Source of the DNA: Nocardiopsis coralli
GTDB lineage: Bacteria > Actinomycetota > Actinomycetes > Streptosporangiales > Streptosporangiaceae
Direction of reading: 5' to 3'
NCBI RefSeq assembly: GCF_014892575.1
Contig: NZ_JADBGI010000030.1
Span: forward strand, 1-64,000
DNA length: 64,000 nt
The position numbers were made by a program, and so were the translations under genes. Positions 46,422 through 61,566 of the stretch are shown here, piece after piece. A model generated the notes under the pieces. It saw only the letters and a program-made list of their open reading frames with translations, made no database searches and was not told where the DNA came from. Numbering within the stretch: the first letter of the stretch is position 1; each line of letters begins with the position of its first letter.

Positions 46422-47657
46422 ATGACCGCCACCAGGACCCTGTACCGGGACCTCACCCTCATCGACGGGACCGGGGCCGCGCCCGTCACCGACGCGGTGG
46501 TCGTGGTCGAGGGCGACACCATCGCCTACGCCGGCCCGCGCGCGCAGGCCCCGGAGAGCCGGCCCGGCGACCGGGAGGCGACGCTCGGGGGACGCACGGT
46601 GCTGCCCGGGTTCATCGACACCCACGTGCACATCGGGTTCGAGAGCGGCAAGGACCTGGCGACCAACAACGCGTCGGTCTCGCGCAGCCTGCACGCGTTC
46701 GAGGCCGGCGACCGGATGCGGCGCACGCTGGAGGGCGGTGTGACGTCGGTGCGCGACCTGGGCGGTGCGGACACCGGGTTCCGGACCGCGCAGGAACGCG
46801 GCCTGGTGCGCGGCCCGCGTATGAACATGGCGCTGCGCCTGATGAGCCACACCGGTGGGCACGCGGACTTCACCCTGCCGTCCGGGCAGAACCCGCACGA
46901 CTGCAACCACACCGCAGCGGAGATCGCCGACTCCGTGCAGGAGGCCGTGGTCGCCACCCGCCGGCTGGTGCGCGACGGCGCCGACGTCATCAAGGTCTGC
47001 GCGACCGGTGGCCTGTCGAGCCCCTCGGACGGGCCGACCGACGAGGGGATCACGGAGGAGGAGATCGCCGCGATCGTCGCCGAGACCGCCAAACACGGCG
47101 GGCGTCCGGTCGCCGCGCACGCCCAGGGCGCCGCGGGGATCCGGAACGCCGTGCGCGGCGGGGTGGCCAGCATCGAGCACGGCTACCTCATCGACGACGA
47201 GGGCATCGACCTGATGCTGGAGCACGGGACCTTCCTCGTCCCGACCCTCACCACGTTCGACTTCGAGGACCGCGTCCACCTCATGACGCAGAAGGCGATC
47301 GACACCAAGCGCGCCCTGGCCGAGGAGACCTACCGCCGGGTCTCGCACGCCGTCGCACGCGGGGTGCGCGTGGCGCTGGGCACCGACGCGGGGATCTCCG
47401 AGCACGGCCGGAACCTGCGCGAGCTGGCCCAGCTGGTGTCGGTGGGGCTGTCCCCGATGGAGGCGATCGTGGCCGGGACCCGGGACGCGGCGGAGCTGAT
47501 CGGCGCCGCCGACCGGGTCGGCACGGTGGAGGCCGGCAAGCTCGCCGACCTGGTCGTGTGCGGCGGCGACCCGCTCACCGACGTGTCGCTGCTGGGCGAT
47601 CCGGCCAACGTCGAGCTCGTGCTGCAGGGCGGGGAGACGGTCAAGGACACCCGCTGA
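46422..47657 (+). CDS. Metal-dependent amidohydrolase 2
   Basis: 411 residues, clearly paralogous to the gene at 43.2 kb. GFIDTHVHIGF near 64 carries HxH, DVIKVCATGG near 188 the bridging Lys, PVAAHAQG near 229 and SIEHGYLID near 250 the other His ligands, and ALGTDAG near 322 the Asp. Differences between the two in the loop after HxH (ESGKDLATN versus AGDGMNPAQ) suggest different substrates. ATG 46422 follows ACGAGGAGCTGTCC. The cluster ends here; the repeat island begins just beyond. Confidence 0.88.
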   Translation: MTATRTLYRDLTLIDGTGAAPVTDAVVVVEGDTIAYAGPRAQAPESRPGDREATLGGRTVLPGFIDTHVHIGFESGKDLATNNASVSRSLHAFEAGDRMRRTLEGGVTSVRDLGGADTGFRTAQERGLVRGPRMNMALRLMSHTGGHADFTLPSGQNPHDCNHTAAEIADSVQEAVVATRRLVRDGADVIKVCATGGLSSPSDGPTDEGITEEEIAAIVAETAKHGGRPVAAHAQGAAGIRNAVRGGVASIEHGYLIDDEGIDLMLEHGTFLVPTLTTFDFEDRVHLMTQKAIDTKRALAEETYRRVSHAVARGVRVALGTDAGISEHGRNLRELAQLVSVGLSPMEAIVAGTRDAAELIGAADRVGTVEAGKLADLVVCGGDPLTDVSLLGDPANVELVLQGGETVKDTR

Positions 47658-47720
47658 GTCGGGAGGACCTCGGCATCACATGACCGTGTCCTGGGGTGGA
47701 TACGGGCTGAGGTGGCCGGG

Positions 47721-47820
47721 CCGGTGCGGCATGCATAGGGCTGGGCTTCAGGCGTCTTCCGCTTCGCGGCGGGCACTCGCCAGCGCTCGCGCCCGCCACG
47801 AAGCGGATCTTGGGTGGGCG
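47721..47820. repeat. 100-bp direct repeat with large hairpin, copy 1
   Basis: It matches 48270-48369 with only seven mismatches. Inside, 47758-47807 folds as a 17-pair hairpin: TCCGCTTCG, one mismatched base, GGCGGGC, a 16-nt loop, GCCCGCC, one mismatched base, CGAAGCGGA. The open frames through it differ between copies, so it is not protein-coding. Confidence 0.85.
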
Positions 47821-48068
47821 TACCGAGATCGGCTCTTCCGTGCTAGTGGCCTTCCGGTCCTGGTGCCCTGAGCGGATCTTGGGTGTGCGTCCCGAAAAGG
47901 CTCTTCCGGAGCCTTCCTGGCCTTCCGCTTCTGGTGCCCTGCGCGGGCTTTGGTGCTTGCCCGGGGCGGATCTTGGGCGGGTGTCCCGGGGTGGCCCTAC
48001 CGGGCCAATGGCCTTCCGCTTCTGGCGCCCGTGGTGAGTCTTGGGCGCGAGTCTCAGGAGGCTGTGGG
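47802..48068. repeat. Degenerate tandem repeat block A (about 69-71 bp units)
   Basis: Units begin AGCGGATCTTGGGTG and end CTTCCG-TTCTGGTGCCC. Copies lie at 47802-47870 (69 bp) and 47871-47941 (71 bp), a truncated copy at 47942-47965, 47966-48034, and a decayed copy after 48035. The first 39 bases of the first unit are identical to 48422-48460 in block B. Confidence 0.8.
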
Positions 48069-48197
48069 TATTCGCCCTCGGGACGTGCCCAGGGGTTGCC
48101 GGAATGGCCATACCGGGGCGGGCAGGACTTCCTGCCCCGGTGCCCGGGACGGGCGCCGGGTACCTCCCCTGGGGAGGCAGTCGGCATGACATGAAGG

Positions 48198-48222
48198 TGC
48201 CCCCGGGCTGGACCCGGGGGCA
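48198..48222. terminator. Perfect hairpin inside the repeat island
   Basis: TGCCCCCGGG and CCCGGGGGCA form a 10-bp stem with a CTGGA loop. It separates the two halves of the duplicated island. The sequence around it (CGGCATGACATGAAGGTG at 48183-48200) resembles 47672-47689 just after the amidohydrolase stop. Confidence 0.5.
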
Positions 48223-48269
48223 TCGTCGTGTGGAGGGCTCCGCGGAAGTGGTGCGGGTGAGGGCCCCTG

Positions 48270-48369
48270 CCGGTGCGGCATGCACGGGGTTGAGCTTCAG
48301 GCGTCTTCCGCTTCGTGGCGGGCACTCGCCAGCGCTCGCGCCCGCCGCGAAGCGGATCTTGGGTGTGCG
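48270..48369. repeat. 100-bp direct repeat with large hairpin, copy 2
   Basis: This is the second copy, 549 bp downstream of the first. The hairpin is at 48307-48356. The mismatched C/A pair of copy 1 is T/G here, so both bases of the same pair have changed and a wobble pair results. Confidence 0.85.
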
Positions 48370-48664
48370 TCCCGAGATCGGCTCTTCCGGGGCCTTCTGG
48401 CCTTCCGGTCCTGGTGCTCTTAGCGGATCTTGGGTGGGCGTACCGAGATCGGCTCTTCCGGGCCAATGGCTTTCCGGCCCTGGTGCCCGGAGCGGGGGTG
48501 ACCTGCGCGAAGCGGATTCTGGGTGCCTGTCCCAGGACGGCCCTACCGGGCCAATGGCCTTCCGGTGCTGGTGCCCGGAGCGGGCTTTGACTGGGTGTCG
48601 CAGGGCGGCCCTTCCTGGCCTTCCGCTTCTGGCGCCCGGCGCGGGCTTTGGGTGCTTGCCCGGG
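48351..48664. repeat. Degenerate tandem repeat block B
   Basis: Units lie at 48351-48421 (71 bp), 48422-48490 (69 bp), 48511-48578 (68 bp, after a 20-bp partial unit) and 48579-48639 (61 bp), then a truncated unit starting CGCGGGCTTTGGGTGCTTGCCCGGGG that also occurs at 47942. It ends at the terminator of the DAHP synthase gene. Confidence 0.8.
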
Positions 48665-48689
48665 GCGGGGCTTGGGCCCCGCCCCGGGC
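48658..48689 (-). terminator. Terminator of the DAHP synthase gene
   Basis: GCCCGGGGCGGGGC and GCCCCGCCCCGGGC form a perfect 14-bp stem with a TTGG loop, ending 11 nt from the stop codon on the minus strand. The left arm overlaps the last repeat unit. Confidence 0.75.
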
Positions 48690-48699
48690 GCTACCGGTG

Positions 48700-54017: not shown

Positions 54018-56384
54018 TCAGTAGGGTTCCCCGTCCATACGCGGTTCGGCGCAGGTCGTGCGCGCGTCGGGGGCGGAACCCCTGCCGCCGTCCTCGCGCT
54101 CGGCGTCCCCGGGGCCGACGTCGGTGGGGTCGCCGTACCCGTCGCCGACCTCGAACGGGCCCTCCTCCTGCAACAGGGTGTGCGCCTGGTGCCGCGACAG
54201 GTTCCAGGACCACACGTCGTCCGGTTCCTCCACCCGGCTCTGCAGGATCTGGACCGCGCAGGCCCGGTCGTCGCCCTCCAACTCCACGAGCGCGGGCAGG
54301 GCGTCGGCGGACAGGCCGCGCAGGTAGCCGGTGTCGATCTCGGCGAGGTCGAGGTCGTGGTGGCTCTCCGCGATCCGGGCGTCCGGGTTGCCCGCGGCGA
54401 AGGCGAGGAGCGCCGCGGCGGTGGCTGCGACGGTCGCGCGCGGCAGCCACCCGGCGCGACGGCCCAGCGTGTTGAGCGCGCCCACGGCCACGACCAGTGC
54501 GAACACCACGGCGCTGAGCACGATCCAGGCCTCGGCGGTCGCCCGCATCCGGGTCAGCCCGAACGTGTCGATGTACAGCTGGAGCCGCACCATGGCCGAG
54601 GCCAGGATGACCATGGTCAGCAGGCACAACGCGCCGAGCAGGGCGTTGCGCAGCGTGCGTCCGCGTCCGGGGCGCTTGGGGACGAGCCGAACGGACGCAC
54701 CCACGACGCCCATGACCAGGGCGCTCACCACGACGAGCTGGAAGAAGCCCTGGCGCGCGTACTCGGCGTAGGTGACCCCGGCGACGCGCTGGACGTAGGC
54801 GTCTCCGCCGAACAGCGTCACAGCCTGGACCGTGAGGAACGCGGTGAACAGCAGCACCACCGCGCCCAGCGGGACCGCCCACGACCAGGCCGGTGCGGTG
54901 GAGTGCGCGGGGGCGGTGGTCGGCGCGGGCTTCGGGTCCCGGGCGGGGCGAGGCCCCGGGAGGCGGCGGCGTGCGGCCAGGACCGCGCCCGTGGTGGCGG
55001 CCATCGCGACGAGGGCGCTGAAGAGGGAACCCACCGAACCGCCGTCCACGGTCAACGAACGGAACGGGCGCACCGCGAACTCCCGGAAGACCGGGTCGGC
55101 CAGGACCAGGAGCGTTCCGAAGGCCAGGAGCAGCGCGGCCGTGATCCCGGCCGTGGCGAGCACCGGTACGGCGTTGGTGCGGGAGGAGACCCGGCGGACG
55201 GGACGCGCCAGGAACCGGGGAGCGGCGGCCGTGTTGCGCACGACCGCGGTGGCGCCGGCGAGGAGGCCGGCGGGGTTCTGACGGGCCGCCGGGTTCCGGG
55301 TCGCGAACGCCAACGACGCGAGGAGGAAGGACGCCGGGAGGGTCCACAGCAGGACCCAGCCCGCGTCGAGGAAGAGGGCGGTGGAGAGCAGGAGCGCGGA
55401 GGCCACGCCGTAGACCGCGGCCCAGGCACGGGAACGGTCGTCGGGGGTGTCGGTGTCGCCGGTGGTCTCCGCCTCCTCGGCCGCCTCGGTGCCCTCGTGC
55501 TCACCGGTTGCCGGAGCGTCCCGCGTGCCTTCTGTGTCCTCCGGGGCCTCGGGCTCCGTGTGTCCCTGGGGTTCCTCGGGGAGCGGAGGTGCCGGACGCG
55601 GTGCGCCAGGTGCGGGCCCAGGAGAGCCGACAGGCACGGGTCCCGCAGAGCCGTCGGGGATCGGGGCCCGGTCGCCCTCGGGCACACCGGGGCGCACCAG
55701 CAGTGAGACGAACGCGGCCAGCCCGCCCACGACGCCGGCCGCGACCAGGCCCAGCCCGGGGCGGTCGAAGGTCACGGCCACCGCGGCGAAGACACCCACG
55801 GCGAGCACGACGGCCGGGAGCCAGAACGGCGCCTCGGGCGTGGGCATGCGCGAGCGGGGAGGAAGCAGGTCGTACTCGGGCGGGTCCGCGTAGCGCCCGT
55901 GCTCCGGGTAGAGGGCTCGGTCCGGGTGCGTCGGATATGGCGAGTGGGCCGGATGCGGTGGCCCGTGCCGGCCGTGCGGCAAGTGCGGCCCGTACGGTCC
56001 GTGTACGTTCGGCGGCCCCTGCGCCTCGTGCGGCCCGTGTGCTTCGCGCTGCTCGTGTGCATCGCCCGGATCGCTGGACGTGCTCGGCCCGTGCTCATCG
56101 CCCGGCCTGCGCGCCTCGTCCTGATCTTGCTCCTCGCCGGGGGTGTGCTCCGCGCGGCCTTCTGGCCCTTGTGCCTCGTCGGGCACGTGCGCCTCGTGCT
56201 GCTCGTGCTCCTCGCCCGGCCTGCGCGCCTCGTCCGGCCCGTGTGTCTGGCCGGGGGTGCGCTCCGCGCGGTCCGCGTCCTGCTCCTCTGGTCCGGGCGG
56301 GGTGCCGGCCGCGTCCGGCACTTGTGCCGGGTCCGGCCCGTGCTCCGCGGGATCCTGCCCCGTGTCTCCTCGGTCCCGTTCCAT
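54018..56384 (-). CDS. Large multi-helix membrane protein (DUF4153-like) with His/Glu-rich N-terminus
   Basis: 788 residues. The first 180 are low complexity, with repeated blocks ARRPGEEHEQHEAH and ARRPGDEHG and later His/Pro/Gly/Tyr runs. Two helices follow (about 190-235), a second acidic linker, then about ten helices (about 350-690) with SRTNAVPVLATAGITAALLL and YAEYARQGFFQLVVVSALV as in DUF4153/DUF4173 proteins. A soluble C-terminal domain ends the protein. The function is unknown. ATG 56384 is used. Confidence 0.82.
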   Translation of the reverse strand: MERDRGDTGQDPAEHGPDPAQVPDAAGTPPGPEEQDADRAERTPGQTHGPDEARRPGEEHEQHEAHVPDEAQGPEGRAEHTPGEEQDQDEARRPGDEHGPSTSSDPGDAHEQREAHGPHEAQGPPNVHGPYGPHLPHGRHGPPHPAHSPYPTHPDRALYPEHGRYADPPEYDLLPPRSRMPTPEAPFWLPAVVLAVGVFAAVAVTFDRPGLGLVAAGVVGGLAAFVSLLVRPGVPEGDRAPIPDGSAGPVPVGSPGPAPGAPRPAPPLPEEPQGHTEPEAPEDTEGTRDAPATGEHEGTEAAEEAETTGDTDTPDDRSRAWAAVYGVASALLLSTALFLDAGWVLLWTLPASFLLASLAFATRNPAARQNPAGLLAGATAVVRNTAAAPRFLARPVRRVSSRTNAVPVLATAGITAALLLAFGTLLVLADPVFREFAVRPFRSLTVDGGSVGSLFSALVAMAATTGAVLAARRRLPGPRPARDPKPAPTTAPAHSTAPAWSWAVPLGAVVLLFTAFLTVQAVTLFGGDAYVQRVAGVTYAEYARQGFFQLVVVSALVMGVVGASVRLVPKRPGRGRTLRNALLGALCLLTMVILASAMVRLQLYIDTFGLTRMRATAEAWIVLSAVVFALVVAVGALNTLGRRAGWLPRATVAATAAALLAFAAGNPDARIAESHHDLDLAEIDTGYLRGLSADALPALVELEGDDRACAVQILQSRVEEPDDVWSWNLSRHQAHTLLQEEGPFEVGDGYGDPTDVGPGDAEREDGGRGSAPDARTTCAEPRMDGEPY

Positions 56385-56845: not shown

Positions 56846-56932
56846 CGCCGCGCGGGGTGTGCCGGGGCACCTGAACCCTGGGGGCCGTCCCGCAGGTCCC
56901 CAGGGCCGTCGCCCCGGCGCCCCGGGCCGCCC

Positions 56933-58186
56933 TCAGCCGGCGCCGGCGGCGGCCAGCGCCTCCTCCCACGTGGTCGGCTCCTCCAGGAGCGCGCGGTACC
57001 GCATGGTCCGCGGCGTCGACCGCAACCCGACCACGCCGGTGAGCATCCAGTCGCGTCCGAGGAAGGCGACGAACTTTCGGTCCTCGGGCGAACCGTGCAC
57101 GAAGCTGACCTGATCCGCCGGGGCGCCCTGGCCCAGCAGCTGGATCTTCATCTTGTATTGGTCGGACCAGAAGTAGGGCACCGGGGTGAAGGGTGTGGGC
57201 TCCTCACCGGCGGCCCGGGCGAGCAGGTTGCGCGCGGCGATCTCCCCCTGCTCGCCGGCGTTGGTCCAGTGCTCCAACCGGATCCGGCCACCGAACCGCG
57301 GGTGCGGCCAGTTCGCCAGGTCGCCCACCGCGTAGACCCCCGGAACCGTGGTCTCCGAGTACTCGTCGCAGGCCACCGACCCGTCCTCGAGCAGTTCCAC
57401 ACCGGAACCCTCGAGCCACTCGGTGTTGAGGTGCACCCCGATCCCCGCGACCACCAGCGTCGCGGGCACCTCGGAACCGTCGGACAGCCGCACCCGCTCC
57501 ACCCGGCCGGAGCCCTCGTACCCCGTCACACTCACGCCGAGCCGCACGTCCACACCGTTCTCCCGGTGCAGGTCGGCCAGGACCTCGCCCACGGCAGGGT
57601 GCACGACCCGCGGCATCGGGGTCTCCTCGGCCTCCACGAGCGTGACGTCCATGCCGACGGCCCGCGCGCTCGCGGCCACCTCGGCGCCGACGAACCCGCC
57701 GCCCACGACCACCAGGCTGCCGCCGGAGTCGAACTCCGCGCGCACCGCCTCGGCGTCGTCCAGGGTGCGCAGCACGTGTACCCCCGCCAGGTCGGTGTCG
57801 GGGCGCCGCGCCCGCGCCCCTGTGGCGATGACCAGGCCGTCGTAGGGAAGTCTCTCCTCACCGTCGGGCCCCTGCACACGCACGAGCCTGTTGTCGGTGT
57901 CCAGGCCCACGGCGCGCCGCCTCAGCCGGAAGTCGGCCCCGATCGCCTCCACGACGGTCTCGTCGCGCAGCTGCAGCGCCCGGTGCCCGGCCAGCCACCC
58001 CGGCTCGCCGCCCGACGGGGTCAGCCCGGCCCCGGTCAGCACCTCCTTGGAAAGCGGAGGGCGGGAGTAGGGCCGGTGCTCCTCCTCACCGACGATCGTC
58101 AGTCCGCCCAGATACCCCTGGGTGCGCAGTGCCTCGGCCGTGTGCAGCCCGGCCATCCCCGCGCCGACGACGACGATCTCCTCCAT
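56933..58186 (-). CDS. FAD-dependent ferredoxin reductase
   Basis: A 417-residue Rossmann-type flavoprotein. The FAD motif VVVGAGMAGLHTAEALR is at the N-terminus, the NAD(P) motif VVVGGGFVGAEVAASAR near 155, the FAD-ribityl motif VYAVGDLANWP near 270 and a C-terminal reductase domain from about 325. It transfers electrons from NAD(P)H to small ferredoxins, most obviously the one encoded convergently next door. ATG 58186 follows CGGGAGAGC. Confidence 0.93.
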   Translation of the reverse strand: MEEIVVVGAGMAGLHTAEALRTQGYLGGLTIVGEEEHRPYSRPPLSKEVLTGAGLTPSGGEPGWLAGHRALQLRDETVVEAIGADFRLRRRAVGLDTDNRLVRVQGPDGEERLPYDGLVIATGARARRPDTDLAGVHVLRTLDDAEAVRAEFDSGGSLVVVGGGFVGAEVAASARAVGMDVTLVEAEETPMPRVVHPAVGEVLADLHRENGVDVRLGVSVTGYEGSGRVERVRLSDGSEVPATLVVAGIGVHLNTEWLEGSGVELLEDGSVACDEYSETTVPGVYAVGDLANWPHPRFGGRIRLEHWTNAGEQGEIAARNLLARAAGEEPTPFTPVPYFWSDQYKMKIQLLGQGAPADQVSFVHGSPEDRKFVAFLGRDWMLTGVVGLRSTPRTMRYRALLEEPTTWEEALAAAGAG

Positions 58187-61406: not shown

Positions 61407-61472
61407 GCCTCCATGGTGTCACGGCGCGCACCCCAACCGGGGCCGTCGGACGTGCTCGGCCGTTCGTGCGTG

Positions 61473-61515
61473 CGTTCCGTGCGGTGCACTCGGCGCTCGC
61501 GCACCACACGGAACG
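61473..61515 (-). terminator. Hairpin terminator after heme oxygenase
   Basis: CGTTCCGTG and CACGGAACG, continued after one C-A mismatch by GGTGC and GCACC, give a 14-pair stem with a 13-nt loop. It lies about 50 nt beyond the heme oxygenase stop on the minus strand. Confidence 0.6.
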
Positions 61516-61566
61516 TTCGGGGCAGCGCTCACGCAGTCCTCGGGGGACTTCCCGGGGCCGTCCGGG

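Follow-up and report, generated by a model that had tools for sequence, protein, structure and literature searches.

A repeat island in Nocardiopsis coralli and its relation to a dispersed family of hairpins

The locus lies within a 64-kb window, i.e., the whole stretch of Nocardiopsis coralli DNA analyzed here, and is bounded by the stop codons of an amidohydrolase (position 47657) and a DAHP synthase (48700), whose Pfam identities are Amidohydro_1 and DAHP_synth_1. The island between them is the most repetitive part of the window. Its longest exact repeat measures 39 nt, whereas none of 500 dinucleotide shuffles exceeded 16, and repeated 12-mers cover 54.6% of its length, compared with 0.7% (max 7.2%) in the shuffles. 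Open frames of 214, 310, and 252 aa are present, but the Pfam search of these frames returned no match, which bears out the preliminary description of a gene-free repeat island between the two genes. An Rfam search at the island gave nothing above threshold; whalefall-1 was rejected as a chance match (18.5 bits vs. a cut-off of 37). No DNA similar to the island was found among plasmid and phage sequences. Elsewhere in the window, a cluster of short (9–25 bp) GC-rich tandem repeats occupies positions 55614–56373, and the region around it (~54.2–56.3k) is largely unaligned with the closest relative, G036.

The two halves of the island are related (Table 1): a 121-nt segment recurs at 93% identity with an offset of 549, and a 101-nt segment at 74% with an offset of 546. 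The duplication proposed in the preliminary description therefore stands, except for its quoted offset of 511 bp, which was not seen. Each half opens with a long hairpin (47758–47807 and 48307–48356). Eight units of ~61–73 bp could be aligned, starting at 47802, 47871, 47965, 48034, 48351, 48422, 48511, and 48579, and truncated unit pieces are also present, in agreement with the original count of about eight; a tandem repeat finder called only the first unit pair as an array. Adjacent units abut directly, with no unique spacers between the repeats, and CRISPR was rejected on this ground, as it had been from the start. Reading frames differ between copies, which likewise agrees with the earlier view that selection, if any, acts at the DNA or RNA level. 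The separate hairpin close to the DAHP synthase is probably an ordinary terminator.

Table 1. Features of the repeat island and family members in the window.
Feature	Position	Strand	Remarks
Repeat island	47658..48699	.	1042 bp; counterpart in closest relative G036 is 45 bp
121-nt segment, first copy	47720..47840	+	Leader TTCAGGCGT, hairpin, and start of unit 1
Hairpin copy 1, dispersed family	47758..47807	-	Better-folding strand; covariance model match 47753-47819, 77 bits; -47.4 kcal/mol, z -7.3
Conserved tip of hairpin 1	47773..47791	+	GCACTCGCCAGCGCTCGCG
Units 1 and 2	47802..47941	+	69 and 71 bp; start with hairpin right arm AGCGGATCTTGGGTG
Units 3 and 4	47965..48106	+	Degenerate
121-nt segment, second copy	48269..48389	+	93% identical
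Hairpin copy 2, dispersed family	48307..48356	-	Covariance model match 48302-48368, 75.5 bits; -43.9 kcal/mol on minus, z -7.9
Conserved tip of hairpin 2	48322..48340	+	
Units 5 and 6	48351..48490	+	71 and 69 bp
Units 7 and 8	48511..48639	+	
Separate perfect 14-bp hairpin	48658..48689	-	-42 kcal/mol; just after DAHP synthase stop
Third, lone family member	61466..61528	-	Shortened loop; covariance model, 48.9 bits

The preliminary description took the 69–71 bp unit as the core entity and asked whether the region belongs to a dispersed family. A search of the genome with the island showed that the ~70-bp units are private to it, with no copy elsewhere in the genome, and the 39-mer at 47802–47840 occurs only twice, both times within the island. 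The dispersed part is a stretch of ~50–80 nt just before the units, i.e., the adjoining hairpin, which had been missed and of which ~50 copies exist at ~22 intergenic places in this genome. The lone copy of the window lies where two co-directional genes are separated by a short gap.

The hairpin model R1 matched 57 places in its own genome at E<=0.01, and 47 when stricter filters and E<=0.001 were applied. It found 5 places with weaker copies in G036, a single borderline match in each of G007 and G013, and none in all other congeners or in 60 more distant genomes. Counts of the tip pattern followed the same distribution, with 46 in the genome itself and 0–4 in each of 39 congeners, the control being near 0. 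Among 84,980 species, the pattern gave 47 scattered single matches, one of them in N. eucommiae; these were mostly tips without a stem and were judged chance. The hairpin family is essentially absent outside this genome and G036. Three tip matches were seen in viral contigs, one of which scores 41 bits with the hairpin model (IMG/VR L154:14551-14618). We found no paper on such repeats in Nocardiopsis.

The hairpin has a stem of ~17 bp, whose lower part is conserved as CGCTCC/GGAGCG while the upper part varies freely yet remains paired, and a tip of 16–19 nt (GCACTCGCYRGCGCTCGCG) that is nearly invariant among copies. On the minus strand, the tip closes with G-U, C-G, tandem G-A/A-G, G-C, and C-G pairs around a four-base loop. 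The window hairpins fold at -37 to -47 kcal/mol, with z-scores of -4.6 to -7.9. In a gap-free alignment of 33 distinct copies, 96% of cells are paired in the proposed hairpin; two-sided changes affect 13 of the 19 stem pairs, with 99 cells changed on both sides. Stem covariation reached 0.49, vs. 0.21 in shuffled alignments, a value matched by none of 500 shuffles, and it was lost when the partner was shifted by 1–3 columns. These patterns suggest that the structure of the hairpin is maintained, most likely at the RNA level. The G-U strand test favored the minus strand at the tip (31 of 33 G-U) and was near neutral in the stem; this weak preference there counts against the reading that we favor below. 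Copies often form inverted pairs ~105 bp apart around a GTGCAC-like center, as observed at several sites.

The hairpin and the units are physically continuous: the right arm GAAGCGGATCTTGGG runs directly into unit 1, so each 69–71 bp unit starts with a copy of the right arm. Right-arm units recur at other sites, with ~25 near-perfect 34-bp units at C6:62.9-63.9k, two units at C16, and several at C17 and C45. A count over 25 hairpins gave 29 downstream recurrences of right-arm 8-mers, vs. 12 in shuffles, and 15 upstream recurrences of left-arm 8-mers vs. 9, which is near chance. We hypothesize that, after arrival of the hairpin, the site expanded as the right arm and its tail were duplicated in tandem, which would yield units of 69–71 bp here and 34 bp elsewhere, and that the whole half (549 bp) may then have been duplicated.

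Gene order from the amidohydrolase to the DAHP synthase is kept in G036, G006, and G008, where a short gap replaces the island, from 45 bp in G036 up to roughly 100 bp across the three relatives. Two further islands behave alike: the 2.9-kb island on C6 corresponds to 55 bp in G036 and 69 bp in G006, and a 1.2-kb island on C17, between divergent genes, to 88 and 65 bp, respectively. At C45:134.5k, this genome and G036 share the hairpin, arms included; at C17:78.2k, G036 carries one hairpin whose arms differ; and one G036 hairpin is missing here, at window positions 56847–56940. Both genomes thus hold private insertions besides shared sites, and therefore the family is older than their split but multiplied in the present lineage. 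The "empty" sites contain unrelated sequence of 45–100 bp and their junctions are too diverged, so that no clean target duplication is readable. A separate family of ~270-bp repeats was also observed, with one piece at L019:4232-4511 (C6:65.2-65.5k) and many 70–75% copies in G006 and G008, often as inverted pairs ~500 bp apart.

The hairpin tip was also located downstream, in sense, of stable-RNA genes, namely tmRNA in this genome (G000), G006, G008, G013, and G018, and tRNA-Ala in G000, G003, G014, and G036. Outside this lineage, the tip sits in a second hairpin type ~80–100 nt behind tmRNA (G006, G008, G013, and G018); its distance behind tRNA-Ala (G003, G014, and G036) covers a somewhat wider range, on the same strand. 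In the genome under study, it was seen behind tmRNA, in five 111-bp copies, and behind both of the tRNA-Ala genes observed; the tmRNA tip site is common to this genome and G013. The G000 tmRNA copy reads CCCCCCGG, tip, CCGGGGGG, and then TTT, and lies behind an ordinary terminator. Tandem repetition of tmRNA terminator blocks was noted in several Nocardiopsis (5 x 111 bp here; G010 and others), and their hairpin tips differ between species (L056:961-1900; loci L217-L246). A 128-bp tandem array with GGTTCGAACC and a very similar tip is found beside tRNA-Gly and tRNA-Pro genes (L214, C45:134.8-135.4k).

The neighborhood of the dispersed copies was considered with regard to termination. About 9 of the 17 sites with both neighbors called are convergent by rough gene calls, and several sites lie <30 bp from a stop codon. 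Like intrinsic terminators, the hairpins are stable, G+C-rich, and placed downstream of a gene. No U-tract directly follows the window hairpins (ATCTTGGG on the plus strand, GGAAGACG on the minus), so they do not qualify as textbook terminators, and one array (C17:71.3-72.5k) lies between divergent genes, a place without need for a terminator. According to PMC8355165, intrinsic termination in other bacteria can be brought about by hairpin clusters, and a poly-U trail is reported to be unnecessary. Most probably, the hairpin would serve at the 3' ends of transcripts, where its stem-loop would be a terminator or a block to RNA polymerase or exonuclease, in either direction where genes converge.

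Together, our results lead us to favor, on balance, the reading of the island as a member site of a dispersed, REP-like family of hairpins specific to this lineage, which would grow by half-hairpin duplication and would likely have a terminator or other RNA 3'-end role. A bolder version, which we consider unlikely, sees a terminator turned mobile, with a tip shared with tmRNA and tRNA transcript ends and recognized by some factor, a self-spreading family, stems whose paired positions are rewritten together at every site, and growth by copying of one arm. The burst limited to one lineage, the private insertions carried by G000 and by G036, the inverted pairs around GTGCAC, and the copies between divergent genes would also fit a purely selfish MITE- or REP-like mobile palindrome without a host role, moved by some transposase and found in intergenic sites only because it is tolerated there. 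We regard this as somewhat unlikely: a recent MITE burst would leave copies that are almost identical, whereas here the arms differ widely by locus while remaining paired, and other species carry the tip at the 3' ends of stable RNAs. Moreover, no terminal repeats with target duplications were found, although the junctions are too diverged for a clear reading, and a search for the Y1 (RAYT) transposase, PF01797, gave no match in this draft genome, whereas control genomes such as E. coli were positive.

Template switching in replication can yield matched changes in both arms of a hairpin. The family could accordingly be a mutational by-product free of selection and function, in which quasipalindrome correction keeps the palindromes perfect and the units stem from replication slippage; the units and the half-duplication do resemble products of slippage or recombination. 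This account is quite improbable, as it leaves unexplained both the near-invariant tip and conserved lower stem across ~22 sites and the abundance in one species only. A protein-coding gene is hardly credible, given that the island's open frames, despite their length, lack a Pfam match, differ in frame between copies, and belong to a region missing in relatives. Just as remote is an assembly artefact: the draft genome comprises 80 contigs, and contig ends (C18, C25) hold some of the family's copies, but the island is internal to a contig of 73 kb and has unique flanks, no two of its units are alike, and the family occurs on many contigs and in G036. The dispersed hairpins represent an actinobacterial family of ~50 copies with a strongly covarying stem, a tip that stays fixed, no known mobilizer, and a visible link to stable-RNA 3' ends. 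The origin and spread of the family are directly testable, as close relatives have empty sites.

In Proteobacteria, dispersed palindromes have been well characterized, and many come with a transposase of their own; Correia, ERIC, and YPAL are bacterial MITE-like palindromes that form species-specific intergenic insertions. The present hairpins are likewise palindromic, intergenic, and species-specific, but their stem sequence is strongly locus-dependent, and terminal inverted repeats together with a target duplication were not found, at junctions too diverged to be read clearly. With intrinsic terminators and terminator hairpin clusters (PMC8355165), they share high stability, a position after stop codons, and clustering, and their tip is common to hairpins after Nocardiopsis tmRNA and tRNA-Ala genes; unlike terminators, the window copies lack a U-tract, and ~50 dispersed copies share sequence and occur also between divergent genes. 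A further likeness is to the GTAG- and CGTC-tagged REP/BIME/REPIN elements (PMC3733652, PMC3116915), which are also dispersed extragenic palindromes in tens of copies, with pairing-preserving stem changes, inverted pairs, and a convergent and 3' preference. As a multi-copy extragenic palindrome with a covarying stem, the family is a variant of dispersed extragenic palindromes. It departs from REP elements in its actinobacterial host, longer stem, and lack of both a RAYT/Y1 transposase in this genome and a consistent GTAG/CGTC tag. No such unpaired tag is present at the stem foot, where window copies end in GCGGATCTTGGG; some other copies are followed by GCGTC, the CG of which takes part in the stem pairing. 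CGTC-type REPs are likewise without a dedicated transposase (PMC3733652). Three features are unusual here: a fixed, near-invariant structured tip with a freely covarying stem, the proposed growth by half-hairpin tandem arrays, and a tip common to stable-RNA 3' ends.
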